In this document: positions 2,627 through 34,956 of the stretch, in pieces
How the letters are laid out: the number at the start of each line of letters is the position of its first letter
Position numbering within the stretch: position 1 is the stretch's first letter
From: Myxococcaceae bacterium
Lineage (GTDB): Bacteria; Myxococcota; Myxococcia; Myxococcales; Myxococcaceae
Assembly (NCBI GenBank): GCA_019694575.1
Contig: JAIBBR010000047.1
Span: 1-35,542 of the forward strand
Direction: 5' to 3'
Length of the DNA: 35,542 nt
Notes under the pieces: generated by a model
The model's input: the letters and a program-made list of their open reading frames with translations, nothing else
Database searches by the model: none
Told to the model about the DNA's origin: nothing
Made by a program: the position numbers and the translations under genes

Positions 2627-4923
2627 GGGGGGCACGCACCCGCCATTGGCTTCGCCCTGCCTTGCTGTTGTTTTTGCTGACCTTGGTGGTCTTCGCGCGA
2701 GCCGCCTTCAGCACCGAGGCCTTCAGCGCTCGCGACGTGCAGCGCTCATATTACCCACTGAAAATGTATTGGGCCGAACGTGTCAGCCACCTCGAGCTAC
2801 CGCAGTGGTTTCCCTACGATGGCATGGGGCAGCCGTATATTTCGGCGCTCGTTTCTGCCGCGCTGCACCCGCTCAACCTTTTGTACCTGGTGTTGCCACT
2901 CGAGAGCGCGCTCAAGTGGGGCTTGCTGCTGTCTTATTTCGCGGCGGCGTTGGGTGTGTTCGGCTTGGCGCGAAGGTTGGGCCTTATGCAGGCTGGAGCA
3001 TTCACCGCCGCGAGCCTTTATGCCTTCAGCGGCTATTTGATTTCGCTTTCCAATAACCCCCATTACGTGCACGCCGCGGCGGCGCTGCCGTTCGTTTTTT
3101 GGGCCACCCATGCGTATCTCTTCGATGGGCGCGCGGCGGCGCTGCTCGGCGCGGCGGTCAGCCTGGCTTGGGTGGCCTTGGCGGGCGACCCACAAAATTT
3201 TTTCGTCGCGCAGGCGCTGGTGGCGGCGATGTGCTTCATCGCTCCCCCACCCCAACGCGGGGCCACGTTGGTTCGCGCGGGGGTGCTGCTCGCCAGCGGA
3301 GCCGCTCTGGCCGCCGCGCAAATCGTACCCGCGCTCGCGGTGCGCGAGCACATTGCCGCGCAGAACTATTCGTTGGACACGGCGTTGTCGTGGTCGGCGC
3401 ACCCACTGCGGGTGGTGGAGTTTTTCACCGGGCCGCTGTGGCTCGACGCCTCGGCCCAACGCATGCTGCCGGGCATCGCCACTGCTTTTGATGCCGCGCA
3501 TGAAGCCGCCTGGGTCGACTCGCAGCACCTCACTCCCTTGGCGCTGATTTTGGCGCTCACCGCCATGAGCGTGGCGTCGTTTCGCGCGCGCACCGGGGGG
3601 TGGCTTGCAGGCTGGCTGTTTCTCTTCGTGCTGTGGCTGGGGCGGTTCACGCCCATAGCAGGTTTGTTTCACGCCCTGCCGTTGTGGGGCTCGTTTCGCT
3701 ACCCCGAAAAACTCACGCCGTGGCTCTTGCTCGGCCTCTCGTTGGCCGCGGGCGCGGGTCTGCACCACTTGGCGCTCGAAGCCCATGCCCGCCGCCGCGC
3801 GCTGCAATGGAGCGTGCTTGTCACCGCCAGTCTGCTTTTCGGCGCGCTGCTCGAAACGGCGCTGCATTGGCCCAGCACCGCGCTCGCGCAATGGGCTTCG
3901 TTGGGCTCGCTGGCGTCTGAACAGCTCCATGCCAACATAGTGCAGCACTTAGGTACCAGCGCGGCGGTGAGTGGCCTGCTCGCGGCCCTGCTTTATTTGG
4001 CGCGCACCCGGCCGCAAGCGCTAAGTGGCATTGCCGCATTGGTGGCGGTGCATTTGGTGGCGCAAGGCGCGGGGTTGTACTGGCTGACTGGGCTCGAGAC
4101 GCTCGAGACGAAGCCTGAATTGCTCTCTCACCTCACCGCGCCCCCCAAAGTACACCCTCGCGTGCTGTCGCGGGTTGGAACCGCGGCGGTGCCCGACGCG
4201 CTGGGCGCAGTCTCACTCCCCACGTTCATGGCGTACACCACGGCTGAGAGCTTGCGCCCGCTCACGCCGACGCGCTGGGGCGTTGAAAGCATGTCGTCGT
4301 ATTTGCCAGCAGCACACCGCGCGTTGGACAAGAGCGAAGAAGCGCTCCAGGCTTTCGCCCCCCTGTGGGGCACTGAATATGTGCTCACCCGCGAGGGGCA
4401 AACCGTCGACTCGGCACAAGTGGTGGCTCGGTCAGCAGAGCTCAAGCTCTCATTGTGGAAGTTTGAGCATGCGCGCCCGCGGGCGTATTTGAGCCTGGCC
4501 GCGGCGTTGCGGCCGCCACTGTCGGCGGCATCGGCGCAGGCGCTGATGCTGGGCTCACCGCCACTGAGCCAAATCGACGCGGCGCCAGCCCCTGCAAACA
4601 CAGACATTACGGCTCCTGTGTCACTCGGTACGGTTGTCTTTGAACAGTACGCGCCTGAACACGTGGTGCTCTGGGTTGAAGCCGCGGTCGACAGTTATTT
4701 GGTGCTCAACGACGCCGCTCACCCGGGTTGGGAGGCGACTGTCGACAACCAAAAAGCGCCGCTGCTGCTCGCCAACGAAGTCGCACGCGCAGTGGCAGTG
4801 CCCGCCGGCAAACACCGGGTAGCGATGCACTACGCGACGCCGGGCCTTCAATTCGGCGCGTTGGTTTCGCTCGTCACCCTGCTGGCGTTGGTGGCTTTTG
4901 CCGTTTGGAATCGAACTGCATAG
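2623..4923 (+). CDS. YfhO-like integral membrane protein
   Basis: A GTG at 2623, overlapping the dtd stop as GTGA, gives a 766-residue protein. An in-frame ATG at 2497 lies deep inside dtd and is an unlikely start. The N-terminus is a short basic leader and a membrane segment around [16 protein letters not shown], followed by [10 protein letters not shown] and [12 protein letters not shown], the periplasmic loop typical of YfhO/GT-C-like proteins. About ten further membrane segments span to roughly residue 520. A periplasmic region follows with a late block containing [18 protein letters not shown], a hallmark of YfhO C-termini, and a final membrane segment ending VAFAVWN. YfhO relatives decorate cell-wall polymers or lipids with sugars from polyprenyl carriers. 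Here the substrate is unknown; the upstream glycosyltransferase suggests surface glycan work. Confidence 0.85.
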
Positions 4924-11664: not shown

Positions 11665-12567
11665 CTACCAATCGCCCTGCGGAGCTGCGACCTGCGCGCG
11701 CTCGAACCACGCGCGCATGTCTGCCGGCAAGGGCGCGTCGATTTGCGTACCCAGCACGCGCAAACTTTGCGCATGGAGCAAGCAACGCGAAGCAGCAGGC
11801 AACCCCCGCATCGACGCGTCGGTCGGGCCCTCGTAGAACGCGTCGCCCCAAATTGGGGCGTCGAGCGCTCGCAAGTGCGCGCGCAGTTGATGGGTGCGGC
11901 CGGTGAGTGGGTAGAGCGCCACCAACGAAAAATCAGCAGCAGCATGGAGTCGCTCAAAGCGCGTCTTGGCCTCCATGCCGTTCGCTTTCGCGCTCGCCCG
12001 CCAGCGACCTAACCGCGAAGGGTCTTTCGAAAGCTTCAGAGAAATGTCTCCGTGCTCCGGTAACGGCCCCGACGCCACCGCCACGTAACGTTTGCGCGCG
12101 GTGCCTTCTCGAAATGCTTCTGCCAATTCGCGCGTGCCCTCGCGCGTCTTGCCAAACACCATGACGCCGCTCGTCTCTTTATCGAGCCGGTGCACCAGCC
12201 CTGCGGGTTTCTTCAAATAATCGCTCACCGCGTCGAGCAACGAATCGCCCCGCTTGCCCTGAGTCGGCTGCGACACCCAACCCGCCGGCTTGTTCACCGC
12301 CAGCCAATCAGCGTGCTCCTCTAAAATGTCGAGCGAGAAAGCGTTTACCTTCGCCAACTCCGGCGTTTGCCCTGCCTCAGAGAGCACCACGCTCACCGTC
12401 GTGCCTTGGGCGAGCAAGGCGCCTTGTTCCACCGCGCGTTTGCCCTGCACATAAACAGAGCCTCGCTCAATCAGCGCAGCCGCTTGACTCGCTGCAACAT
12501 CGAGCTCGGCGGCGAGCGCATCACGCAGACGTGCCTTGGTGGCGATGACGAAGGTTCGACGTTTCAC
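11665..12567 (-). CDS. RluA-family pseudouridine synthase
   Basis: Enzymes of this family isomerise specific uridines to pseudouridine in 23S rRNA or tRNA. The 300-residue protein has an N-terminal S4-like RNA-binding segment (about 10-60, with ASQAAALIERGSVYVQGKRA) and a catalytic domain from about 80. The signature HRLDKETSG is at 126-134 with catalytic Asp129. The later motifs RKRYVAVASG, ALYPLTGRTHQLRAHL and PIWGDAFYEG match the family. The substrate site (RluC, RluD or another type) cannot be chosen by eye. Length is typical. The ATG at 12567 faces the divergent peptidase-like gene across about 50 bp. Confidence 0.93.
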   Translation of the reverse strand: MKRRTFVIATKARLRDALAAELDVAASQAAALIERGSVYVQGKRAVEQGALLAQGTTVSVVLSEAGQTPELAKVNAFSLDILEEHADWLAVNKPAGWVSQPTQGKRGDSLLDAVSDYLKKPAGLVHRLDKETSGVMVFGKTREGTRELAEAFREGTARKRYVAVASGPLPEHGDISLKLSKDPSRLGRWRASAKANGMEAKTRFERLHAAADFSLVALYPLTGRTHQLRAHLRALDAPIWGDAFYEGPTDASMRGLPAASRCLLHAQSLRVLGTQIDAPLPADMRAWFERAQVAAPQGDW

Positions 12568-12620
12568 GGGTGGTTTTTAAGCACTTGAGTCGTACGGCGT
12601 GAACGCGCGATCATGCCGGT

Positions 12621-14120
12621 GTGGCGTTCTCTGTTAACAGCCTGCTCGAAAGGCTTGAAGCATTTCTCTACGCGCGAGGTGCCGCTGCGTACCGTGCCGC
12701 CGCCGGTCTGCCGGGTACGGTGACGTACGAAAGGCGCTATCGTGATTTTCCCGAGCTGACCGTTCACGACACTTTTCGCGAGCTGCGAGAGCACGTCGAC
12801 AACCCACGCTACGACCCTGAACGCAAACACCGGCTGCGTCTGGTGTTGGCCACCTTCGCCGACGCTCTCGAAGAATCGGCCGCCATTGCCCCACTTGACG
12901 CGCAAGCAGCAGTGCTCTTGGCCGAAGTTCCCGGTTTCGCCGGGCGCTCACTGCGCACGCTCATGGGCCAGTGGGAGCGTGAAGGCGACCGCGCCCAACG
13001 CCATGCAATGACGCAAGCCGCCTTCGCTGAGCTCTCTACCCAACCAACCGCCTGGCGCCGCCGTGTCGACGCGCAAATGCAGCTCGCCGAAACACTCAAG
13101 CTGCCCAACTGGAAAACCTTTCGCTCCACTTCGGGCCCTTACCCGCTCGAAGGTTTCGAGCAGCTCACCCACCACGTGCTCAAAGCCAGCGACGACGCGT
13201 ACCGTGACTTGCTCGGCTACGTGCTCAAGCACGCCCACGTCGACACGCCGATTGAAAGCCCGCTGCTCCACGACGTGCAGTACGCGTCGAATGCACCCTG
13301 GGTGCGCGATTCTTTTCGCCCCGAAGACGCGCTTACCGCCGTCACCCGTTGCCTAGAAGACATCGGGTTGCCTCCCCACGCGCAGGGCCGCTTGGCGGTC
13401 GACTCCGAGCCGCGCGAAGGTAAAGAACCCGGCGTTCATTTGGCGGTGCTCAAAGCTCCCGAAGAAGTGCGACTGGTGATTTCTCCGCGCGGGCATTTGG
13501 GAGGCCTGGCTGAATTGCTCGGCGGTTTCGGAGCGGCGCTCTACCACGCACACGTTTCACCCCGGCTGCATTTGCCCGAGCGCGCGCTCGCAGACCCCAC
13601 CTTGCCGGCCGTTTTTTCGGCCCTCTTCTCGCGCTTGCTCACTGACGAAGGTTGGTACCGGCGCTATTTGCGCTTGGGAGCCCCCGCGGCACGAGAAGCG
13701 GCCCGCCTCGCCGCGTTTCGCCAGCTCTTCGAATTGCGGTGGCTCACCGTGCGCGCGCTGCACAGCTTTGAAATGTACGAGCGAGGCCCGGTACCTCCGT
13801 TGGCGTCGAGCTACGAAGAGCGCGGGCGTGAAGCGTTGCACGTGGGCGGCATGCGCGAACGGTACTTGTACGACGTTCAGCAGGGGCTCGATGTCTTCAC
13901 CGCGCTGCGCGCCATGGCGCTCGAAGCGGGGCTGCACCGGTATGTACAAGAGAAATTCAACGAAGACTTTTACCGCAACCCTGCCACTGGCCGCTGGCTC
14001 TCGGCATTCGCCGCCTCGGGGCAAGCCGACACCACCGAGAAAATGATGGCGCCTCTGGGGGCTTCGCTCACCGCCTTTGACGCGGCCAGCCAGCGGCTGG
14101 TCCGCGTGATGGCAGCCTAA
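12621..14120 (+). CDS. M3-peptidase-like protein with a degenerate zinc motif (probable pseudopeptidase)
   Basis: The 499-residue protein has the overall helical layout of PepF/oligoendopeptidase F-type M3 metallopeptidases. The block PREGKEPGVHLAVL (264-277) matches the conserved RxGKxxGAF segment that precedes the active site. It is followed at about the expected distance by GLAELLGGFGAALYHAHV, aligning with the HEFGHALH zinc helix, here GGFGAALY at 301-308. Both His ligands and the catalytic Glu are replaced, so peptidase activity by the known mechanism is not expected. A C-terminal helical part containing LFELRWLTVRALHSFEMYER and YVQEKFNEDFYRNPATGRWL fits M3/M32-like folds. It may be a binding or scaffolding protein. 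The start is GTG at 12621. It converges on a small unknown gene 8 bp downstream. Confidence 0.75.
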   Translation: MAFSVNSLLERLEAFLYARGAAAYRAAAGLPGTVTYERRYRDFPELTVHDTFRELREHVDNPRYDPERKHRLRLVLATFADALEESAAIAPLDAQAAVLLAEVPGFAGRSLRTLMGQWEREGDRAQRHAMTQAAFAELSTQPTAWRRRVDAQMQLAETLKLPNWKTFRSTSGPYPLEGFEQLTHHVLKASDDAYRDLLGYVLKHAHVDTPIESPLLHDVQYASNAPWVRDSFRPEDALTAVTRCLEDIGLPPHAQGRLAVDSEPREGKEPGVHLAVLKAPEEVRLVISPRGHLGGLAELLGGFGAALYHAHVSPRLHLPERALADPTLPAVFSALFSRLLTDEGWYRRYLRLGAPAAREAARLAAFRQLFELRWLTVRALHSFEMYERGPVPPLASSYEERGREALHVGGMRERYLYDVQQGLDVFTALRAMALEAGLHRYVQEKFNEDFYRNPATGRWLSAFAASGQADTTEKMMAPLGASLTAFDAASQRLVRVMAA

Positions 14121-14128
14121 CCCTTACG

Positions 14129-14443
14129 TCACGACGGCTTGCGCTTACGCAACGCGCGAACGATTTTGTCTTTCGCGGGGTTCTTCGGTGCCATTGCCGC
14201 TTGCGCTTTCTGCATGCGGGCACGCATCGCCCTGAAGAGCTGCATCTCAATGACCATCAGCTCATCAGCGAGGGCTTCGTTCTTGCCATAAGCCCGTTCG
14301 AGCGGCGCTGCCGTAGACACCTTCGCCCCGTACCGCATGCGCAGAGTCTTCTCTTCTTCCGACGTGACTGTCGTCGTCCGAGACAGCGCTGTCGTCACTT
14401 CTTCTTCACTGACGACCGCGGTGATTCCACCCTTCCGCTCCAT
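14129..14443 (-). CDS. Small hypothetical protein with helical C-terminus
   Basis: The 104-residue protein begins MERKGGITAVVSEEEVTTAL and contains EEEKTLRMRYGAKVSTAAPL, then a likely long helix (LADELMVIEMQLFRAMRARM) and a Lys/Arg-rich tail. It has no signal peptide or membrane segment. I recognise no domain. Codon usage is like that of its neighbours and the ATG at 14443 is the natural start. It is convergent with the M3-like gene. The basic tail and helix suggest nucleic-acid or protein binding, but this is only a guess from composition. Confidence 0.65.
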   Translation of the reverse strand: MERKGGITAVVSEEEVTTALSRTTTVTSEEEKTLRMRYGAKVSTAAPLERAYGKNEALADELMVIEMQLFRAMRARMQKAQAAMAPKNPAKDKIVRALRKRKPS

Positions 14444-14742
14444 TTTGCTACCCTTTCTTCAGTACTGAACAACCGGCCATGTCGGACGCGGCGAATCCGC
14501 GACCATTGAGGATTGTAGGGGTGAGAAGCCACTCGGCAAATTTTTGGCCGATGCGCCTTTTGGCTTACCCAAAGCGCCACACCGACCTGACAGCCATGTC
14601 AGATCGTCACAGCCCCTTAAGCGGCTGGTGCACTCAGTTCAGACACCCTAACTCTCTGCATAAACTGCTGATTTTGGGCCCGGTGGATCTACCGCGCCCC
14701 ATGGGTGGGTTTTCGGTAGATCTACCCGGGGGTTGCTGAGGC
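14444..14742. other. About 300-bp intergenic region carrying twin palindromes
   Basis: This gap lies between the starts of the leftward small hypothetical gene and the terminator of the leftward lipoprotein gene. Candidate frames on both strands lack homology and ribosome sites. The only structure I see is the pair of near-identical palindromes listed separately. The promoter of the small hypothetical gene should lie here, but no clear -35/-10 pair could be chosen. Confidence 0.4.
14682..14726. promoter_or_regulatory. Twin palindromic sites GGTGGATCTACC and GGTAGATCTACC
   Basis: GGTAGATCTACC at 14715-14726 is a perfect 12-bp palindrome. GGTGGATCTACC at 14682-14693 differs from it at one base. 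Their centres are 33 bp apart, about three helical turns, as expected for two operators bound on the same DNA face. The pair also forms one longer stem with flanking CCCGG and CCGGGG, so an RNA hairpin is an alternative. No gene starts immediately downstream on the plus strand; the leftward gene starting at 14443 is the nearest candidate target. Confidence 0.4.
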
Positions 14743-14768
14743 AAAAAAGACGCCGCGGCCACCGGCGT
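14743..14768 (-). terminator. Rho-independent terminator of the leftward lipoprotein gene
   Basis: Read on the minus strand, ACGCCG (14763-14768) and CGGCGT (14750-14755) form a 6-bp GC-rich stem with a 7-nt loop. This is followed after one C by six T residues (plus-strand A run at 14743-14748). It lies just downstream of the stop codon of the leftward gene at 14782. Its form is that of an intrinsic terminator. Confidence 0.8.
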
Positions 14769-14781
14769 GGCGCAGCGCAAT

Positions 14782-15819
14782 TTAGGGCTTTTTCAAAGGC
14801 GCCTCGTCGTCGTCATCGTCGTCGGCGTCGGGTGCACGGGCGTGGCCGCCGTCGGCACCATCGCGAACGATACCGAAGCGCTCGAGCGCCGCGGCGATGC
14901 CTTCGGGCTTGTCTTGGTCAGGCAAAAAATCAGCCGGCAACTTGAGCTGCGGGTCCTTGCCAATGTCGGTCATCGATGAGTCGAGCACCAAGCGCAATTC
15001 AGCGTCGCCTCCGTCGGCATTGACGCCGATACGGCCATCGAGGTGTGTCTTCACCACCACCGACGTCTGCGCGTCGACCCACACTTCGCCTTGCAGCGTG
15101 CGGGGGTTGCGCAATTCTTGAAACCGCAGTCGGCGCTGGGTGGTTTCATCGACACCGTTCTTCGGGGTCAGCGGAGGAGGCAATGCCTTACCCCCGGCGT
15201 CGGGCACCACGGGGCCGAGTGAGACTTGGTATTTCCAAGCGGTGCGGCCTTCATGGCTCACCGTGCCCTGCGCGGCGAGCTTGATGCGGCCTTTGAAAAA
15301 ATAGTCGAAGTCAGAGATGGCACCGTAAAGCTCTTCGCGCATGTGCTCGGCGATGCCGCGGTCGCGCAAGCGTTGGCGAAATTTGCCATAACGGCTCTTG
15401 GCGAAGACTTGGCCGTGCACGCGCATGACTTCTAAGCCTTGGTCGCGCGAGTTTTCTTCGACACCCGAGAAGTCTCCGCTCAAGCCACCGGGCCCAGCGA
15501 GCAAGGTGCGGTTTTCGACCAGCTTCAAGTTGGGGCGGCCGACGGCGCTCCACTCGTAGGTGACGGTGGCGGTGAATTTGTGAGCGCCGATGCGCTCGGT
15601 GGCTTCGGCAGCGCCCATGCCCAACACGCGGCGCGAGACAGCGACGTTTTCAGCCACTTCTTCGGGTGGCAGCTTCTGTTTCGCCGCGGCGAGGGCCTGC
15701 GGAGGGTCTTCAGGCGAGAAAATGCGCTGCTTGGCGGCCTTGTCGACCGGTTCAGTGCAGGCGGCGACCGCCAAAGAAATGAGAAGAGCGAAGCGTTTCA
15801 CGTGTCGAAGTGGGTGCAC
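14782..15819 (-). CDS. Lipoprotein with poly-aspartate tail
   Basis: The 345-residue protein has a basic start, a hydrophobic core FALLISLAVAAC and a lipobox with Cys21, so it should be lipid-anchored in the envelope. The body includes RVLGMGAAEATERIGAHKFT, NRTLLAGPGGLSGDFSGVEE and HGQVFAKSRYGKFRQRLRDR, then a late block LQGEVWVDAQTSVVVKTHLD that resembles the beta-rich LolA/LolB-like outer-membrane lipoprotein carriers. That fold suggestion is inference. The tail is strongly acidic (DADDDDDDEA) before a basic end, which might bind cations. GTG at 15819 is used; a second GTG six codons later (VKRFALLISL) is equally plausible. It has its own terminator and diverges from the DUF2058 gene. Confidence 0.75.
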   Translation of the reverse strand: MHPLRHVKRFALLISLAVAACTEPVDKAAKQRIFSPEDPPQALAAAKQKLPPEEVAENVAVSRRVLGMGAAEATERIGAHKFTATVTYEWSAVGRPNLKLVENRTLLAGPGGLSGDFSGVEENSRDQGLEVMRVHGQVFAKSRYGKFRQRLRDRGIAEHMREELYGAISDFDYFFKGRIKLAAQGTVSHEGRTAWKYQVSLGPVVPDAGGKALPPPLTPKNGVDETTQRRLRFQELRNPRTLQGEVWVDAQTSVVVKTHLDGRIGVNADGGDAELRLVLDSSMTDIGKDPQLKLPADFLPDQDKPEGIAAALERFGIVRDGADGGHARAPDADDDDDDEAPLKKP

Positions 15820-15853
15820 CCTAGCAGGTCTTTGCTAGAAGCCTTCTACAGCG

Positions 15854-16510
15854 ATGCTGAGCCTGAAAGACAAGCTTTTGAAAGCGGGACTGGTCTCGGA
15901 AGAAGCGGCGAAGAAAGCCGAGGCCGAGAAAGAAGCGACCCAAAAGGCCGCCCAACAACGTGCACGTGGCCCGGTGGCCGCGTCGGCCAAGGCGCCCATG
16001 CCGCGCCGCGAGAGCCCAGCGGCGAGGCTCGAAGAGAACCGGCACGTACCCAAATTCGCGCCGTTGCCCGGCAGCAAAGCGTGGAACCAAGAAGAAGCGC
16101 GCAAACAGCAGGCGTTGGACAAGCAGCTGCGTGAGCTGGTGCTCGCCGCGCAGGTGACGCTAGAGCCCGGCGACCGGGTGTTTCACTTTCAGACGCGCAA
16201 AGGCAAGTTACGACGCTTAGAGCTTTCAGCCGCGCAAGGTGCGTTGCTTGAAGAAGGCAAGCTGGCGGTGGTCGAACGCCCAGACCCCGCGCAGATTGAG
16301 CATGCCTTGGTGCCGGTAGAAGTGGCCGAGAAAATGTTGGCGCTGTCTGAGCGCGCGGTGCGGTTTTTGAACAAGGCCGGCAACAATGTCGGTTTCTTGT
16401 CGGAAGAAGAAATTCACCAGCGCGCGGTTGAGACAGCGGTGAAGCCGGCGGCTGCCAGCACCGAGGCCGAAGCGCCAGCTGAAGTGTGGGTGACGATTAA
16501 GCGCGGGTAA
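15854..16510 (+). CDS. DUF2058 family protein (YaiL-like)
   Basis: The 218-residue protein matches the DUF2058 family typified by E. coli YaiL, annotated as nucleoprotein/polynucleotide-associated although the function is unproven. It opens with the family block LSLKDKLLKAGLVSEEAAKK and continues with a Lys/Ala/Glu-rich coiled segment. The core includes LDKQLRELVLAAQVTLEPGD, VFHFQTRKGKLRRLELSAAQ and the C-terminal LVPVEVAEKMLALSERAVRF. Length and order fit the family. The ATG at 15854 lies 34 nt from the start of the divergent lipoprotein gene, so both promoters share a very short region. Confidence 0.9.
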   Translation: MLSLKDKLLKAGLVSEEAAKKAEAEKEATQKAAQQRARGPVAASAKAPMPRRESPAARLEENRHVPKFAPLPGSKAWNQEEARKQQALDKQLRELVLAAQVTLEPGDRVFHFQTRKGKLRRLELSAAQGALLEEGKLAVVERPDPAQIEHALVPVEVAEKMLALSERAVRFLNKAGNNVGFLSEEEIHQRAVETAVKPAAASTEAEAPAEVWVTIKRG

Positions 16511-16624
16511 TGAAGCGGCTCGAGTGGGGCGAGCTAAGTCAAATTGCGCAGCGCCGTGCCCCTTAAGTCACTTTGCTTTGGGCGACTGTGAGGCCCGTTC
16601 ACGTTCAGCGAGGGCGTGAAGACT

Positions 16625-16644
16625 TATCGCTCCATATAGCGATA
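16625..16644. terminator. Hairpin downstream of the sigma-factor operon
   Basis: TATCGCT at 16625-16631 and AGCGATA at 16638-16644 form a perfect 7-bp stem with a 6-nt loop. It lies 18 bp past the stop of the last gene of the leftward sigma operon. There is no T-run on either strand, so intrinsic termination would be weak; RNA 3-prime-end protection or a protein site are alternatives. Confidence 0.4.
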
Positions 16645-16662
16645 GGTCCACACGCGCTCGCT

Positions 16663-17469
16663 TCAGCGCGCGTTTGACTCACCCACGCACGAAGCTTTCA
16701 CCCGCAACGCCACCGGAGCCGACGGCGACAGCTCAATCAACCTGCGTGCGATAGTCTTCGCATCGTCAACGCGCTCGAGCTCGCACAAGGCGATGACATT
16801 CAGCACCATCGCTTCTTCGCGCAGCACCCCGTTGGGAAACTGGGCCGCGTAGTCTTCAAGCACGCGCAGCGATTTTTCCGCTTCGTGCTCTGTCGCCGCG
16901 CGTTGCGCTTCGTTGAGCAGCTTAAGCTCACCCTCGAGTGACGGACCACGCGCCGTCACTGCCACATGCTGGCGCGAGGAAGGAGAAATGGACGGCGTCT
17001 CTTCAACCTTCGACGGCGCGAGGTAGGGCGACGCTTCTTTCTTCGGCACGTTTGCGCGCGCCGCTTTGGCAATAGGCGCGATGACAGGAGCTTCAACCGG
17101 CAGAGGCGGCATCATCGAGGGTGCTGGCCGGGGTTTCACGTCGACAGCTGAAGCAACCGGTTCTGCCCGCGGGCCCTTGGGCACAGCCATGCGTTGCCGC
17201 TCTGCGCGCGCTTCTTCATTTCGCGCCTGCTCGACTTTCTCATACACAAAAAGGGTGCCTCCAAACCCCACCGATACCGCCAGCGCCGCCACCGCGACTT
17301 TGGAAAACAACCCCATCGCCGTCGCCGTGCCCGACACCGCCAAACTGGCTGGCAATGCCAACTTCGACCACAAGCCCGTGCGAATGCGCGTGCGGTGCTC
17401 TACCGTCAATGGAGCCACTTGGCGCGCCTTGGCCACCAACGACTTCGCGCGAGGACTCAAAGCCGTCAT
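16663..17469 (-). CDS. Single-pass membrane protein with TPR-like C-terminus, candidate anti-sigma partner
   Basis: The 268-residue protein overlaps the upstream ECF sigma gene by 4 nt. A cytoplasmic N-terminal region (about 1-50) precedes a likely membrane segment near 55-76 (KVAVAALAVSVGFGGTLFVY). A long Pro/Ala-rich linker follows, then a helical C-terminal region with ELKLLNEAQRAATEHEAEKS, LRVLEDYAAQFPNGVLREEA and DDAKTIARRLIELSPSAPVA, which reads as TPR-like repeats. This architecture recurs next to ECF sigma factors in myxobacteria, where such proteins are thought to act as membrane-anchored anti-sigma or signal-relay proteins. The zinc-binding HxxxCxxC anti-sigma motif is absent, so the anti-sigma role is inferred from position only. 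Confidence 0.75.
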   Translation of the reverse strand: MTALSPRAKSLVAKARQVAPLTVEHRTRIRTGLWSKLALPASLAVSGTATAMGLFSKVAVAALAVSVGFGGTLFVYEKVEQARNEEARAERQRMAVPKGPRAEPVASAVDVKPRPAPSMMPPLPVEAPVIAPIAKAARANVPKKEASPYLAPSKVEETPSISPSSRQHVAVTARGPSLEGELKLLNEAQRAATEHEAEKSLRVLEDYAAQFPNGVLREEAMVLNVIALCELERVDDAKTIARRLIELSPSAPVALRVKASCVGESNAR

Positions 17470-18077
17470 CGCTCGCCCTCTGCGACCAAACGCTCGACGG
17501 CGGCGTTGAACAGCTCACGCGCAACGCGCAACCGCGAGTACACGGTGTTGAGCCGCACGCCAAGCGCTTCACTTATTTCGGGCGCGGTCATTTCTTCGAG
17601 CTCGGCGAGCACGAACACTTCGCGCTTCTCGGCGTCTAACGTGTCGAGCACACGGTCGATGAGCTCTTTGCCTTCTGACAACGCGGCTGATTCAACAGGC
17701 GTACGCTGGGTATCGGCCAAATCTTCAGAGAGCTCTTCGAGTTGGCCCTTGCGCTGCAGGCCGCGGCGGTAGTCATGGGCTACGCGCACCGCAATCGCGG
17801 CGAGCCACGCCTTGAGCGACGACCCAGGGCAAAACGCAGAAAGGCGCCGGTGCACCACCAAGAAGACGTCTTGGGTCGCGTCGTCGACGTTGGCCGTGGG
17901 CACACCCAAACGCGAAAGGTTGCGCCACACGAAGTCGACTTGGTTCTCGTAAATTTGCGCAAAGTCTAACCGCAGGGCCTCGGCGCGTTTCGGCTCCGAC
18001 ACGAATTCAGCGGAGTGCTCGATATGGAGGGCCAGGGCCATCGACTTCACATGGCCGGGCAGCGTCGAATCCGTCAT
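17466..18077 (-). CDS. ECF-type RNA polymerase sigma factor
   Basis: The 203-residue protein has a region 2 at about 39-105 with QIYENQVDFVWRNLSRLGVP, the core-binding DDATQDVFLVVHRRL block and a Trp-containing promoter-melting helix (KAWLAAIAVRVAHDYRR). Region 4 (about 140-190) contains LDAEKREVFVLAELEEMTAP and the helix-turn-helix SEALGVRLNTVYSRLRVARE. It should direct RNA polymerase to a small regulon, commonly including its own operon. It overlaps both neighbouring genes by 4 nt (ATGA). A 35-residue N-terminal extension precedes region 2; later starts at Met13 are possible. Regulation is probably by the downstream membrane protein. Confidence 0.94.
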   Translation of the reverse strand: MTDSTLPGHVKSMALALHIEHSAEFVSEPKRAEALRLDFAQIYENQVDFVWRNLSRLGVPTANVDDATQDVFLVVHRRLSAFCPGSSLKAWLAAIAVRVAHDYRRGLQRKGQLEELSEDLADTQRTPVESAALSEGKELIDRVLDTLDAEKREVFVLAELEEMTAPEISEALGVRLNTVYSRLRVARELFNAAVERLVAEGER

Positions 18078-29051: not shown

Positions 29052-29291
29052 ATGACCGAAGACATTCGAAACATCGTCAAAGAGCACGGCCGGCTTTCGG
29101 TCGACGTCGCCAGCCTCACCGATGACGCCGACTTGTACGCCGCGGGCCTCACGTCACACGCCAGCGTCAACTTGATGCTCGCACTCGAAGCGAAATTCGA
29201 CATCGAGTTTCCCGAGCGCATGTTGCGCCGCAAGTCATTCGAAAGCATCGCCGCGATGAAGGCGGCCATTTCTGAATTGGTGCCCCAATGA
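29052..29291 (+). CDS. Acyl/aminoacyl carrier protein
   Basis: The 79-residue protein has the four-helix carrier-protein pattern: ADLYAAGLTSHASVNLMLAL at 26-45, with Ser35 at the phosphopantetheine attachment position. The usual DSL triad reads TSH here, as in carrier proteins of amino-acid-charging systems rather than fatty-acid ACP. FDIEFPERMLRRKSFESIAA and AAISELVPQ complete helices III and IV. It should carry an aminoacyl group as a thioester. It is the first gene of a six-gene cluster and overlaps the next gene by 4 nt (ATGA). No strong ribosome site is visible before ATG 29052. The stand-alone form and position next to the amino acid:carrier ligase make it the ligase's probable substrate. 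Confidence 0.9.
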   Translation: MTEDIRNIVKEHGRLSVDVASLTDDADLYAAGLTSHASVNLMLALEAKFDIEFPERMLRRKSFESIAAMKAAISELVPQ

Positions 29292-30445
29292 GTGCTCTGC
29301 GAGAAAACCTTGTCGCCCAAGCCAAAAAAATTGGCGAAAAAGTCGTCGCTGCCCACGCCGCTGACGTCGACGCCACGGCCCGCTTTCCCACTGAGTCATT
29401 CGCCGCGCTGAAAGAAGCCAAGCTGCTCTCGGCGATGGTGCCCAAAGCACTCGGAGGCCCAGGCGCCACTGTCTCTGACATCGCCGCGGTCTGCACCACG
29501 CTCGGCCATTATTGCGCGTCGACCGCGATGGTGTACGCCATGCACCAGAGCCAGGTGGCCTGCATCACTCGCCATTGCGGCAGCTCTGCCTGGCAGAAAA
29601 ACTTCATCGCCGAGATGTGCAAGCAAGAGCTGTTGATTGCATCGGCCACGTCAGAAGCTGGCATCGGCGGCGACGTGCGCACTTCGAGCTGCGCGGTCGA
29701 AACCACCGGCGACCGCTTTACCCTCGCCAAAAACGCCACCGTCATCAGCTATGGCGCTCACGCTGACGCGGTTTGTCTGACGGCGCGGCGCACGCCTGAC
29801 TCACCTCCCAGCGACCAAGTGCTGGTGGTTTGCCCCAAGGGTACTTACACCTTGGAACAGACCAGCGGCTGGGACACCCTGGGCATGCGCGGCACGTGCA
29901 GCAACGGGTACTGGCTGCGGGCCAAGGGCTCTACCGAGCAGGTGTTGCCCACGCCCTACGCCGACATTTCAGCGCAGACCATGTTGCCCTCGGCGCACGT
30001 GTTTTGGGCGTCGCTGTGGCTGGGCATTGCCTCAGATGCCCTAAATCGCTCGCGCCTTTTCATTCGAGGAGAAGCGCGCAAGAAGCCAGGCTCCGTTCCT
30101 CCTGGCGCGGTGCGGCTCGCCGAGGCCAGCAACCAATTGCAATTGATGCGCGCCAACGTCACCGACTGCGCTGCAGCCTACGAAGCGGCGATGGCCACAC
30201 CCGAAGCCACCACCGCGCTCGGCTTCGCCATTCGCATGAACCACCTGAAGACCGGCACTTCACAAATGGCCATCGACGTGGTGAACCGCGCCATGTTGAT
30301 TAACGGCATTCACGGCTACCGAAACGACAGCCCCTTCAGCGTGGCCCGCCACCTGCGTGACGTGCACAGCGCGCAAGTCATGGTTTCCAACGACCGTATT
30401 TTCGGCACCACCGCTTCGCTCCTGCTCGTTCACAAGGAAGACTAG
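29288..30445 (+). CDS. Acyl-CoA dehydrogenase-like flavoprotein acting with the carrier protein
   Basis: The 385-residue protein has the ACAD layout: an N-terminal helical domain with [20 protein letters not shown] and [16 protein letters not shown], a central FAD-contacting block [18 protein letters not shown] (about 114-131), and a C-terminal helical domain including [20 protein letters not shown]. At the place where medium-chain enzymes have the catalytic Glu of YEGTxEI, this protein reads MVSNDRI, so it either uses another base or a different chemistry. Since it is coupled to a carrier-protein gene and an amino acid:carrier ligase, its substrate is probably an aminoacyl or modified acyl thioester on the carrier protein, not a fatty acyl-CoA. 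This is inference by position. It starts within the stop of the ACP gene. Confidence 0.88.
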
Positions 30446-30450
30446 ACCCC

Positions 30451-31380
30451 ATGGCATCGACCCAAGAGCTGAGCCAAGCGCAGCGCGCGTACTTAGACGA
30501 GCTGCTCAAACACGGGCTGTTGATTGAAACCGGCGTCGACGGGCTGTACGGCCGCAGCGGCGTTTTCGAAGACGTGGTTGACCGCTTCAACGTGCTGATT
30601 TCGCGCTACGGCGGTGGCGACGGCGCCGAAGTGATGCGCTTTCCTCCCGCGATTAGCCGCAAGCACTTAGAAGAGAGCGAGTACTTGAAGTCTTTTCCCC
30701 AGCTGGCCGGCACGCTGCACAGCTTCATGGGCAACGACGCTGACCACCTGGCGCTGCTCAAGGCGATTGAAGAAGGCCGCGACTGGACATTGGGCCAAAA
30801 AGCCACTGATGCGGTGATGACACCGGCGGCCTGCTACCCCATTTACCCCACCCTGGCGAAGCGCGGCCCGCTCAAGCCTGACGGCGCGATGGTCGACGTT
30901 TACTCCTATTGCTTTCGCCACGAGCCGTCGGTCGACCCGGCGCGCATGCAGCTGTTTCGCATGCGTGAGTACGTGCGCATCGGCAGCCCGCAGCAGGTCA
31001 TGTCGTTTCGCGAAATGTGGCTCGAGCGCGGGCAGAAGCTCATGGGCTCGCTGGGCGTGCCGGTGAAAATCGACGTCGCCAATGACCCCTTCTTCGGCCG
31101 CGCGGGCCGCATGCTGGCCGTCAACCAACGCGACCAAGGCCTCAAATTCGAGCTGTTGATTCCCATCACCAGTGAAGAGAAGCCGACCGCGTGCCTCTCG
31201 TTCAACTACCACCAAGACCACTTTGGCCTGCTGTGGAAAATTGCCACCCACGATGCGCAAGTGGCGCACACCGCCTGCGTCGGCTTCGGCATGGAGCGCG
31301 TCACTTTGGCGCTCTTCAAGTACCACGGCTTCGACGTCGAGAAGTGGCCCGCCGCGGTGAAGAAGCAGCTCTGGCCTTAA
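30451..31380 (+). CDS. Amino acid:[carrier protein] ligase (class II aaRS homologue)
   Basis: This 309-residue protein belongs to the amino acid:[carrier protein] ligase family typified by Bradyrhizobium Bll0957. These proteins resemble the catalytic domain of atypical archaeal seryl-tRNA synthetase but lack the tRNA-binding domain and load glycine or alanine onto a carrier protein's phosphopantetheine using ATP. The three zinc ligands recur as Cys128 (PAACYPIYP), Glu173 (MREYVRIG) and Cys276 ([12 protein letters not shown]), spaced as Cys131, Glu176 and Cys279 reported for Bll0957. Class II motif 2 is seen in [11 protein letters not shown] and motif 3 in [12 protein letters not shown]. It starts 5 nt after the ACAD gene, and the carrier gene is adjacent, so the charging partner is evident. 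The amino acid specificity cannot be read here. Confidence 0.93.
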
Positions 31381-31392
31381 AGCGCGATACAC

Positions 31393-32379
31393 ATGCAGAA
31401 AAGCGCCCGCATTCTACCGCTCGAGCCGAAAGGCTACACCCCGCACGCGCTGCACCACCCCGAGCGCGCCTGGCCCGAGACGAACTGCTACGTCGATTTG
31501 TGGATAGAGGTGTTGAACGCGTTTGGTTATGAGCCGCGCGCCGCGCTCGCGTTTTGCCTCGAGATGGACTTCGAAGGCGACCAGTGGACATTCTTCAAGT
31601 TTCCCCTGCAAGACTTGAGCGCGCTCTACGGCATCGAAGTGCAAGAGATGGCGGTGTGGCGGCCATTGCAAGAGCACGTGCTCGAGCATGTGGGGCAAGG
31701 CCGCTTGCTGATTGTCGAGATGGACTCACACTACATGCCCGACACCACCGGTACCGCGTACCGCAACGAGCACGTGAAAACGTCTATCGGCATTCAGCAC
31801 ATTGACGCCGGTGCTGAACGGCTCGGCTATTTTCACAACGCTGGGTACTACGGGCTCGAAGGTGAAGATTACCGCGGCGTCTTTCGGCATTTAGAGGCCC
31901 TGAAAGACCCGAACATTTTGCCCCCTTACGTCGAGATGGTGAAGTTCAACCCCGAGCGCGCGCTAAAGGGCACCGCGCTTTACGCCGAAGCGCTGAAGCG
32001 GGTTCGCCAGCGGTTGCACCGCGCTCCGAAGCAAAACCCGTTTCGGCCGTTTCGCGCGCGCTTCAAAGAAGACGTGGCGTGGCTGCACACCCAACCCATT
32101 GCCACTTACCATTTGTACGCGTTCAACACCTTGCGCCAAGTAGGGGCGGCTTTCGAGCTGGCGTCGTCGCAGCTCGACTGGTTGCACACCCAGGTGCAAG
32201 GCGAGTGGAAAGTGGCGCAACAAGCGTTCGCCGACATCGCCGCGTTGAGCAAGTCGCTGATGTTTCAACTGGCGCGCTCGGTGAATCGCAAGAAACCGCT
32301 CGACGCTGAAGCTTCGTTCGACGCCTTCGAGCAGCATTGGGAGCGGGGCATGGCCTGCCTCACCGCACAGTTCCGCTAG
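31393..32379 (+). CDS. DUF1839 family protein, candidate BtrH-like cysteine acyltransferase
   Basis: The 328-residue protein belongs to DUF1839, a family I associate with amino acid:carrier ligase genes. Its first half resembles the BtrH N-terminal/C39-like papain fold: Cys32 in ETNCYVDLWIEVLNAFGYEP followed by a hydrophobic helix, then RLLIVEMDSHYMPDTTGTAY (104-123), His127 in RNEHVKTSIGI, and a late YFHNAGYYGLEG with Asn149 that could complete a Cys-His-Asn/Asp triad. BtrH transfers an aminoacyl group from a carrier protein to an aminoglycoside, so an analogous acyl transfer here is attractive. The second half is helical (KQNPFRPFRARFKEDVAWLH, STYHL-like region, QQAFADIAALSKSLMFQLAR). The BtrH comparison is pattern-based inference. 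It starts 12 nt after the ligase. Confidence 0.82.
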   Translation: MQKSARILPLEPKGYTPHALHHPERAWPETNCYVDLWIEVLNAFGYEPRAALAFCLEMDFEGDQWTFFKFPLQDLSALYGIEVQEMAVWRPLQEHVLEHVGQGRLLIVEMDSHYMPDTTGTAYRNEHVKTSIGIQHIDAGAERLGYFHNAGYYGLEGEDYRGVFRHLEALKDPNILPPYVEMVKFNPERALKGTALYAEALKRVRQRLHRAPKQNPFRPFRARFKEDVAWLHTQPIATYHLYAFNTLRQVGAAFELASSQLDWLHTQVQGEWKVAQQAFADIAALSKSLMFQLARSVNRKKPLDAEASFDAFEQHWERGMACLTAQFR

Positions 32380-32397: not shown

Positions 32398-34956
32398 ATG
32401 GCCCGAATTCGTGACGTCAGCGGCATGCGTAAAGTGCGCCTCATCGACGGGTGGGGCTTGTGCGCCACCCAACCCAACGCCGCCTTTGGCCCCGACGCCA
32501 TCGAGGCGATGAACCCGCGGTGGACCCGCGCCCAAGTACCAGGCACCGTGGCGCAAGCGCTGGCCGCGTCGACCGCCTGGAGCCTGGACGACCCGGCGTC
32601 ACTGCACCACCGCGACTACTGGTACAAATGCACTTTCGCTTCAGGCACCGTGCCGGCAGGTGAAGCGCGCACGCTGCATTTCGAGGGGCTGGCGACGTTG
32701 GCCGAGGTGTGGCTCAACGGGCAGCGCATTCTCGAAAGCCACAACATGTTTCACGCCCACGACGTCGAAGTGGCGAAGCTGCTGCAGGGCGAGAACCACC
32801 TCTATATTTTGTTTCGCGCGTTGAACCCGGTGTTGGCGGCGAAGAAGCCCAAGCCCCGGTGGAAACCGCGCATGTTTGAAACCAGCAACCTGCGCTTTTG
32901 CCGCACCACTTTGCTGGGCCACATGCCGGGGTGGTGCCCTTCAGTGCATGCGATTGGCCCGTGGCGCGACATTTGGCTCGAAGAACATTTGGGCCACATG
33001 CGGGTGCTGACCGCCGACGTACGCCCCACTTTCGACAACGGCACCGGCAGGGTGCGGGCGCGCATCAAAGTCGAAAACCTGCCGTCGGGCGGCATTGGCT
33101 GGCTGCAGGTGGGCGACGTCAAAGGCACGTTGGAGCAAGTGGGCGGCGGCTACCTCGAAGGCCAAGTCGACCTGCTCCAGGCCACGGCGTGGTGGCCGCA
33201 CACCCACGGCGAGCCGGCGCTGTACCCCGTTGAAGCGCGCATCGCCGATGCCACGGTGAACCTGGGCCGAACCGGCTTTCGCACGGTGACGTTGGAGCAA
33301 GAAAACGGCACCTTCGGCCTGAAGGTGAACGGCGTGCCAGTCTTCGCGCGCGGCGCCTGTTGGACCACGCCCGACATTGTCTCGCTTGGCTCATCGCGAA
33401 TCGACTGCGACGCACTGCTGCGGCTGGCGCGTGACGCGGGCATGAATATGCTGCGCGTCGGCGGCACCTTCGTTTACGAATCAGACGATTTTTTCGATTT
33501 GTGCGACGAGCTCGGGCTGATGGTGTGGCACGACTTCATGTTCGCCAATTTAGACTACCCAGCCGCCGACACCGAATGGTTGCGCAGCGTGGTGACCGAA
33601 GCCGAGCAGTTCGCTGACCGCTCGCAACTGGCTCCTTCGCTGGCCATGTTCTGCGGTGGCAGCGAAGTCGAGCAGCAAGCCGCGATGATGGGCCTGCCCC
33701 GTGAAGCGTGGAGCAGCCCTCTTTTTCGCGAGGTGCTGCCGGGCGTGACGCAGAAAATTCGCCCCGACGTGCCTTATTGGCCGAACAGCCCTTCAGGAGG
33801 CCCGCTGCCATTTCAAGCCAACCGCGGCGCGACGCATTATTACGGCGTGGGCGCGTATTTGCGGCCGCTCGATGACGCCCGCCGTGCCGACGTACAATTC
33901 GCTTCTGAATGTTTGGCTTTCGCCAACATTCCCGAGCAGAGCACGCTGAGCGAATTGCTGCTCAAGAGCGAAATGCCCTTTCACCACCCGCGCTGGAAAG
34001 AGCGGGTGCCGCGCGACTTGGGCGCCACGTGGGACTTCGACGACGTGCGCGACCACTATTTAAAGACGCTCTTCAAGGTCGACCCCGCCGAGCTGCGTTA
34101 CACCGACATGGCGCGTTACATGGCCTGCAGCCGGGTGGTGACGGGCGAAGTGATGAGCCATGTGTTTTCTGAATGGCGCTCGAGCGGCACGCACACCAAT
34201 GGCGGGTTGGTGTGGTTCTACCGAGACCTGTGGCCGGGCGCGGGTTGGGGCGTGGTCGACGCCAAGGGTGTACCCAAGGCGGCCTGGCACTATTTGAAGC
34301 GGGCCTTCGCGCCGGTGACAGTGCTGGCCACCGACGAGGGGCTCAACGGTTTGCGCATTCACGTCATCAACGAGGGCAGCGAGTCGCTCTCGGCCGACGT
34401 GCGCCTGGTGCATTACCGCCATGGCGAGACACCCATTCACTCGGCGAAGTGCCGGTTGAAAATCGCTGGCCGGGGCCGGGTTGAATTGTGGGGCGCTGAG
34501 CTGTCAGAGCACTTTTACGACGCGACTTATGCGTACCGTTTCGGCCCTCCGGCGCACGACGTGACGGTGGTGTCGCTCTACAATGTGGGTGGTTCGGCAC
34601 CCATCAAGCTCGCCGAGGCGTACCATTTTCCCCACGGGTACAACCTGCTGCCGCGGGGCAACTTGGGGTTGGAAGCACGCGTGGTGTCGACGCGCGGCAC
34701 GTACCAACTGAGCCTGAAGACGAAACGTTTCGCGCAGTCGGTGCACATTGACGACGACAACTTTCGCCCCGCTGATGACTATTTTCACCTCGCGCCGGGC
34801 TCGAGCCGGTTGATTGCCCTCACTCCACTCAAGCCGGGCGTAGAGCCTGACGGCGAACTGCACGCGTTGAACTTGCACACGCCAGTGCGCTTTCGAAGCA
34901 CCGGCGAATTGAGCTCTGCCGAGCAAAAGGCGCTCAACGTAAGGCCCCCGAAATGA
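32398..34956 (+). CDS. GH2/beta-mannosidase-like glycoside hydrolase
   Basis: The 852-residue protein has the GH2 layout: an N-terminal jelly-roll (HHRDYWYKCTF, HFEGLATLAEVWLNGQRILE, 70-115), an immunoglobulin-like domain, and a TIM barrel from about 310 (VNGVPVFARGACWTTPD, RLARDAGMNMLRVGGTFVYE). The acid/base Glu423 is in FCGGSEVEQQ, where typical beta-mannosidases have GNNE. The nucleophile Glu504 is in FASECLAFANIPE. The C-terminal part is a beta-rich extension. No signal peptide is visible, so it should be cytoplasmic, unusual for a polysaccharide-degrading enzyme and better suited to a small glycoside. GAGGGG four bases before ATG 32398 supports the start. Its stop overlaps the following GNAT gene by 4 nt. 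Confidence 0.88.
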   Translation: MARIRDVSGMRKVRLIDGWGLCATQPNAAFGPDAIEAMNPRWTRAQVPGTVAQALAASTAWSLDDPASLHHRDYWYKCTFASGTVPAGEARTLHFEGLATLAEVWLNGQRILESHNMFHAHDVEVAKLLQGENHLYILFRALNPVLAAKKPKPRWKPRMFETSNLRFCRTTLLGHMPGWCPSVHAIGPWRDIWLEEHLGHMRVLTADVRPTFDNGTGRVRARIKVENLPSGGIGWLQVGDVKGTLEQVGGGYLEGQVDLLQATAWWPHTHGEPALYPVEARIADATVNLGRTGFRTVTLEQENGTFGLKVNGVPVFARGACWTTPDIVSLGSSRIDCDALLRLARDAGMNMLRVGGTFVYESDDFFDLCDELGLMVWHDFMFANLDYPAADTEWLRSVVTEAEQFADRSQLAPSLAMFCGGSEVEQQAAMMGLPREAWSSPLFREVLPGVTQKIRPDVPYWPNSPSGGPLPFQANRGATHYYGVGAYLRPLDDARRADVQFASECLAFANIPEQSTLSELLLKSEMPFHHPRWKERVPRDLGATWDFDDVRDHYLKTLFKVDPAELRYTDMARYMACSRVVTGEVMSHVFSEWRSSGTHTNGGLVWFYRDLWPGAGWGVVDAKGVPKAAWHYLKRAFAPVTVLATDEGLNGLRIHVINEGSESLSADVRLVHYRHGETPIHSAKCRLKIAGRGRVELWGAELSEHFYDATYAYRFGPPAHDVTVVSLYNVGGSAPIKLAEAYHFPHGYNLLPRGNLGLEARVVSTRGTYQLSLKTKRFAQSVHIDDDNFRPADDYFHLAPGSSRLIALTPLKPGVEPDGELHALNLHTPVRFRSTGELSSAEQKALNVRPPK

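Follow-up and report, generated by a model that had tools for sequence, protein, structure and literature searches.

A DUF1839 protein as a probable papain-fold aminoacyltransferase acting from a carrier protein

We propose that the DUF1839 protein encoded in a 35,542-nucleotide stretch of DNA (hereafter the window) is probably a papain-fold, carrier-protein-dependent aminoacyltransferase of the BtrH, CcbD and CtaG kind, in which the transferred group would pass through Cys32. This assignment draws on a structural model, on profile comparisons and on analogy with enzymes of known mechanism. The family is conserved far above chance, and the operon in which it is found recurs in at least five phyla. 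That the acceptor of the transfer is a glycan strikes us as an evenly balanced proposition. The amino acid:carrier protein ligases (Bll0957 and its relatives), known since 2010, are relatives of tRNA synthetases that charge a carrier protein rather than tRNA, and the later fate of their amino acid was not established in the literature that we searched. With DUF1839 as a concrete candidate whose residues can be named, CcbD as a mechanistic model of solved structure and GH2 as a predicted partner on the sugar side, that fate becomes directly testable.

Results

The DUF1839 gene and its operon

The first-pass annotation of the window had placed a DUF1839 reading frame beside a charging ligase, and both statements hold. 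The gene starts with ATG and encodes 328 amino acids; the product is a member of PF08893 (DUF1839), which it matches at 1.5e-119 (399.3 bits against a gathering cut-off of 22.5) over positions 2-312 of the 313 in the model. It is the fourth gene in a tight set on one strand, which is followed by a GNAT gene at the contig end:

29052..29291, + strand: carrier protein (PRK07081) of 79 amino acids, with Ser35 as the probable phosphopantetheine site
29288..30445, + strand: ACAD-fold flavoenzyme, with Val at the base position held by Glu376 in ACADs (MCAD)
30451..31380, + strand: amino acid--[carrier protein] ligase (PRK07080), a homologue of Bll0957
31393..32379, + strand: DUF1839 gene, proposed aminoacyl-carrier-protein acyltransferase
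32398..34956, + strand: GH2 beta-mannosidase-like protein, with Glu423 and Glu504 conserved

The host genome holds one DUF1839 gene and one PRK07080-type ligase, whose closest solved relative is Bll0957 (2.2e-94). In the ACAD-fold enzyme the Val stands where the YEGT motif of 3pfd-type ACADs has its catalytic Glu, and the PDB matches of this enzyme include the nitrososynthase DnmZ, KijD3-like FAD oxidoreductases and DszC; its role may be that of an oxygenase, or of a non-standard oxidase, with the carrier-bound amino acid as substrate. The two Glu residues of the GH2 protein are kept in a 64-member alignment, at the places expected for the catalytic pair of a beta-mannosidase. For the DUF1839 protein itself, PF08893 was the sole Pfam family reported, with no match to BtrH_N (PF14399) at E <= 1; PDB sequence searches, both with the protein alone and with the family profile, returned nothing meaningful, and a literature search found no activity and no experiment for any DUF1839 protein.

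Predicted fold and structural relatives

An AlphaFold2 model built on 42 sequences (pLDDT 92.9, pTM 0.92) divides the protein into a papain-like N-terminal domain (about residues 1-189) and a helical C-terminal domain (about 193-327). Its secondary structure (DSSP) comprises a helix at 32-43 that starts at Cys32, as had been anticipated from the sequence, and strands at 105-111, 129-138, 143-148, 151-156 and 180-185; the loop at 112-128 is modelled with less confidence (pLDDT block means of 81 and 66). The arrangement is that of papain-like proteins, with a helix beginning at the Cys and then an antiparallel sheet that carries the His and Asn/Asp positions. The earlier expectation of a papain- or BtrH-like fold is thus borne out by the prediction, which might instead have yielded an unrelated one.

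In a Foldseek comparison with the PDB, the 18 leading matches were all to CtaG, AziU3/U2 or CcbD, with E values from 2.7e-6 to 1.4e-3 (16 of them at E <= 0.001), and the next row, at E 0.07, was unrelated. VIA-align superimposed the model on CcbD with Z 19.2 (rmsd 3.4 A over 286 aligned residues), on AziU3 with Z 17.9 over 284 residues and on CtaG with Z up to 16.9, the full-length matches to the three ranging from 15.7 to 19.2. These alignments run end to end through both domains, taking in DUF1839 residues 15-328. Generic papain-like chains (Lpg2622, cruzain, C39 and phytochelatin synthase) reached at most Z 7.6, over 144-161 residues of the N-terminal domain. The model therefore supports a fold closest to CcbD and CtaG, whose substrates are acyl or aminoacyl thioesters on a carrier, and to AziU3, although this likeness alone does not prove the reaction, because the chemistry of CtaG and AziU3 differs from that of CcbD. 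We also considered a generic C39 protease as the nearest kind and set it aside: the C39 chains gave Z of 6.3 or less, and such matches can reflect a mere common arrangement.

A papain-like fold in the vicinity of glycan genes might also recall enzymes of the wall-hydrolase type. We judge this reading of the DUF1839 protein very improbable, given that its nearest folds are carrier-dependent enzymes and not wall hydrolases, that it constantly co-occurs with the ligase, and that inspection of the sequence by eye reveals no export signal.

Conserved residues and a probably permuted catalytic centre

Conservation was counted in an alignment of 70 DUF1839 members, with Cys32 scored only in those rows that have a residue there. 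The motifs picked out in the first-pass annotation (ETNC with Cys32, VEMDSHYMPD at 108-117, RNEH with His127, and Asp138 and Asn149) are all in place. The principal features are:

31486..31488, + strand: Cys32, proposed nucleophile at the N-terminus of helix 32-43; Cys in 68/68 rows with a residue
31723..31725, + strand: Asp111; 69/70, set by hhalign opposite the Asp of the BtrH motif TD..LPY
31771..31773, + strand: His127, two residues before strand 129-138; 70/70
31780..31782, + strand: Thr130, at the canonical place of the papain His by hairpin register and PMC10318531; Thr in 66 and Ser in 4 of 70
31834..31836, + strand: His148, at the canonical Asn/Asp place (PMC10318531), proposed catalytic base; 70/70
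32134..32157, + strand: R248-x-x-G251-A-x-F254-E255 motif of the helical domain; R248 and G251 in 70/70, aligned by hhalign with the glycine-rich EKRGTGGGxFR of BtrH
32251..32295, + strand: basic patch of K287 (69/70), R295 (70/70) and positions 299-301 (basic in 85-91%)

Lys129 is likewise found in 70/70 members, and Tyr146 is invariant wherever a residue is present; Asp138 is kept in 67/70 and Asn149 in 63/70, with Ser, Gly or Ala in the remainder. Divergent homologues, at about 35-39% identity, retain Cys32, His127, Lys129, Thr130, Asp138, His148 and Asn149. Of the three residues that had been put forward as a conserved set, Cys32 and His127 are indeed invariant, but Asn149 is not, and the invariant His148 had been overlooked.

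In the model, strands 129-138 and 143-148 form a hairpin in which residue 138 pairs with 143, and residue 148 therefore lies opposite 133. In papain, the residue paired with the Asn lies three positions after the His (His159/Asn175). The same register, applied to the DUF1839 hairpin, puts Thr130 at the His place and His148 at the Asn/Asp place, with a spacing of 18 residues to be compared with the 16-18 that separate His and Asp in BtrH proteins. This agrees with the structural model of a 2023 study, in which the DUF1839 centre is C-(T/S)-H and the His and the Thr/Ser have changed places (PMC10318531). Going by the strand register of the model, the triad would probably have to be rewritten as Cys32-Thr130-His148. 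The Cys-His-Asp/Asn order that had been likened to papain survives in outline, whereas its third member, Asn149 or Asp138, is unsupported, and His127 sits two residues ahead of the strand that usually bears the His. Asp138 was discarded as a triad member, for it ends its strand eight residues past Thr130, beside the hairpin turn.

The same fold and role could also be served by an ordinary Cys-His dyad or triad, with His127 as the base, as the first-pass annotation had it, and Asn149 or His148 as the third member. His127 is after all invariant; hhalign sets it opposite the BtrH His, with a three-residue gap behind it; and, as the loop at 112-128 is modelled less surely, this residue could bend back. 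Nevertheless, we think such a centre unlikely: His127 lies outside strand 129-138, Asn149 varies, and the BtrH-like distance from Thr130 to His148, the papain-like placing of residue 148 opposite a position three past Thr130 and the published C-(T/S)-H model all speak for the permuted arrangement. With Cys32-Thr130-His148 as the preferred centre, we consider that His127 may be another possible base or may help to bind the substrate. Asp111, for its part, is a possible counterpart of Asp114 of CcbD, which contacts the sugar (PMC12945683).

Distant relationship to BtrH

The DUF1839 alignment was compared by hhalign with 11 BtrH_N proteins from related genomes. The two align over their full length, Cys upon Cys, and their TD..LPY and G-x-F motifs fall together as well. 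The scores, 30.8 in local and 29.0 in global mode, exceed the maxima of 60 column-shuffled controls (22.7 and 11.7, respectively); the reversed BtrH alignment scored 8.7 in global mode, and E values were 0.09-0.7 for it and for four unrelated families. A homology with the BtrH proteins is thus detectable at the profile level, distant yet above control. The label "BtrH-like" may accordingly be kept in the sense of this profile similarity over shuffled controls, but not in that of membership in BtrH_N (PF14399). Searching the PDB sequences with a homologue of BtrH gave chance matches only.

Gene neighbourhoods and co-occurrence

We surveyed the context of 69 DUF1839 loci, which by their record titles come from Alpha- and Betaproteobacteria, Gemmatimonadota, Myxococcota, Chloroflexota and Actinomycetota. 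The ligase lies directly upstream of DUF1839 in 61/69, and GH2 is present in all 63 loci with a long enough flank; a phosphopantetheinyl transferase gene often precedes that of the carrier protein. A carrier protein and an enzyme that charges it are accordingly found in the same pathway as DUF1839. In the host phylum DUF1839 occurs in 11/195 genomes, and the same 11/11 hold a strong ligase match (in one case divided between two contigs). Among 346 sampled genomes of a second phylum, 3/3 with DUF1839 have the ligase, while a strong ligase occurs without DUF1839 in 2. Across both phyla a strong ligase accompanies DUF1839 in 14/14 genomes, counts that are not independent because the genomes are related.

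Two further observations concern the ligases. Five genomes of the host family (G061, G062, G064, G101 and G139) carry only a weaker ligase paralogue, of a second type (E 1e-44 to 1e-49), without DUF1839. In one actinobacterial genome (G341, locus L124), some 8 kb separate two ligase-carrier pairs (3144-4620 and 11857-17773), only one of which is accompanied by ACAD, DUF1839 and GH2.

In Propionibacteriaceae, DUF1839-GH2 stands alone in five loci with adequate flank. A DUF1839 without any ligase is ruled out there: the ligase is located elsewhere in the same genomes, and in the three genomes examined it sits with the phosphopantetheinyl transferase, the ACAD and a hydrolase gene that we call gene 6. 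That DUF1839 keeps GH2 while parted from the ligase suggests that it belongs with the sugar-side enzyme.

Gene 6, which follows GH2 in many loci, encodes a tandem alpha/beta-hydrolase that has the exosortase-associated hydrolases 1 and 2 as relatives. Its second domain keeps a nucleophile-like G-x-C-S-G and a DH motif, and in Rhizobium it is fused behind a flippase, with glycosyltransferases alongside. The host copy (L121:9548-11320, contig C81 of G000), 44% identical to that of G109, is on another contig than the operon, with no obvious glycan genes beside it.

These properties allow a different division of labour, in which the gene 6 hydrolase is the transferase and DUF1839 either offloads wrong acyl groups, as a proofreading thioesterase, or performs a CtaG-like step on the carrier. 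The recurrent position of gene 6 after GH2, the flippase fusion and the conserved motifs of its second domain are in keeping with this, as is its staying with the carrier, ACAD and ligase where DUF1839-GH2 moves away in Propionibacteriaceae. We regard it as an unlikely arrangement all the same: the relatives of gene 6 are hydrolases named for exosortase systems, DUF1839 remains paired with the sugar-side enzyme GH2, and its structural matches are to enzymes that make amides out of carrier thioesters.

Two myxobacterial loci (L040:3216-5030 and L050:3804-5180) have a KamA-family radical SAM gene (lysine 2,3-aminomutase-like) immediately upstream of the operon, and one is seen in Rhizobium loci (L007:4296-5348) near the EpmA and EF-P genes. 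It may be a chance neighbour or a hint at a beta-amino acid.

Discussion

Proposed function

We return to the DUF1839 protein as the proposed aminoacyltransferase. The proposal that it is BtrH-like and acts on aminoacyl-carrier thioesters is supported by the fold near CcbD, CtaG and AziU3, by the BtrH relationship and by the adjacent ligase and carrier; the triad, as first written, is not supported. The transfer, its acceptor, the catalytic residues and the carrier docking that we infer would fit together as follows. The ligase would load the carrier protein, at its phosphopantetheine, with a small amino acid, which may be oxidised in this bound state by the ACAD-like flavoenzyme. DUF1839 would then dock the carrier through the basic patch on its C-terminal helices, and Cys32, activated by a His148 that Thr130 orients in the permuted Cys-Thr-His centre, would take over the aminoacyl group in thioester linkage. 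This thioester would be attacked by the sugar acceptor, through an amine or a hydroxyl; the neighbouring GH2 enzyme probably handles that acceptor too. The product would be an aminoacylated glycan building block that is exported to the cell surface.

For the docking step, CcbD offers a precedent, gripping its carrier by Arg312, Arg316, Arg323 and Arg324 (PMC12945683). When the C-termini are aligned (DUF1839 328 with CcbD 353), an offset of about 25 brings K287 near CcbD R312, and by this analogy the patch of K287, R295 and 299-301 is possibly a carrier-docking surface.

More broadly, and with somewhat more doubt than assurance, we entertain the possibility that DUF1839 forms a branch of its own among the carrier-dependent acyltransferases, marked by a permuted Cys-Thr/Ser-His centre, and that in its pathway an amino acid would be activated by a descendant of the aminoacyl-tRNA synthetases, oxidised on the carrier by a flavoenzyme and joined to a glycan precursor. 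If this is true, bacteria of several phyla attach a modified amino acid to their surface polysaccharide.

Comparison with known systems

The idea of a transferase is not new: its role was predicted in 2010 (PMC2922099) and its fold in 2023, when DUF1839 was classed in the papain-like superfamily (PMC10318531), and the present finding joins the two. New are the match to CcbD and CtaG, the conserved basic patch, the co-occurrence with the ligase in 14/14 genomes and the lineages in which DUF1839-GH2 is parted from the ligase. The neighbourhoods described for the amino acid:[carrier protein] ligases (Mocibob et al. 2010; PMC2922099) represent the same operon, with carrier, flavoenzyme, ligase, an uncharacterised ORF, glycosidase and surface-sugar genes. 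There, a redox enzyme was predicted to oxidise the aminoacyl group, and a note in proof predicted that the ligase-linked ORF Atu2574, which by gene order we take to be a DUF1839 protein, forms an amide between the amino acid and a cell-surface sugar; to that note, the present work adds a predicted fold and proposed catalytic residues, which were not given in it.

With BtrH (PF14399), the acyl-ACP:aminoglycoside acyltransferase of butirosin biosynthesis, DUF1839 shares the distant full-length profile similarity described above, whereas its catalytic His/Asp positions appear permuted and the aminoglycoside context is absent. AziU3 of the AziU2-U3 complex (7wuw, 8gs1) has the fold in common with it. 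This protein belongs to the azinomycin pathway, with AziU2 as its partner and a different chemistry.

CtaG acts on carrier-bound substrates. It serves in closthioamide biosynthesis and gave the top Foldseek match (9quz and related entries) at 14% identity; its structures include mutants of Cys11, His128 and Asp144, and its product is, in distinction to that proposed here, of the peptide type.

The most instructive parallel is with CcbD/LmbD, the lincosamide condensation enzyme (7yn1, 7yn2, 9dkr, 9dks), which shares with DUF1839 the whole-length fold, the Cys that is catalytic in CcbD and proposed to be so in DUF1839, and the helical C-terminal domain. Others have shown the ligase activity of Bll0957 and, for CcbD, a Cys ping-pong with a sugar amine, in which the Cys takes up carrier-bound proline and hands it on to a thiooctose amino sugar, at its amine (PMC12945683). 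Chemistry of this sort is what the first-pass annotation had envisaged, and no other protein of solved structure matches DUF1839 as well as CcbD does. The two proteins are only 11-12% identical; CcbD has a Cys-His-Glu centre where that of DUF1839 is apparently Cys-Thr/Ser-His, and its donor comes from an adenylation domain, whereas that of DUF1839 would come from an aminoacyl-tRNA synthetase-like ligase. By analogy with CcbD, a carrier-bound aminoacyl donor is to be expected for DUF1839 and a sugar acceptor is likely, with basic residues available for carrier docking.
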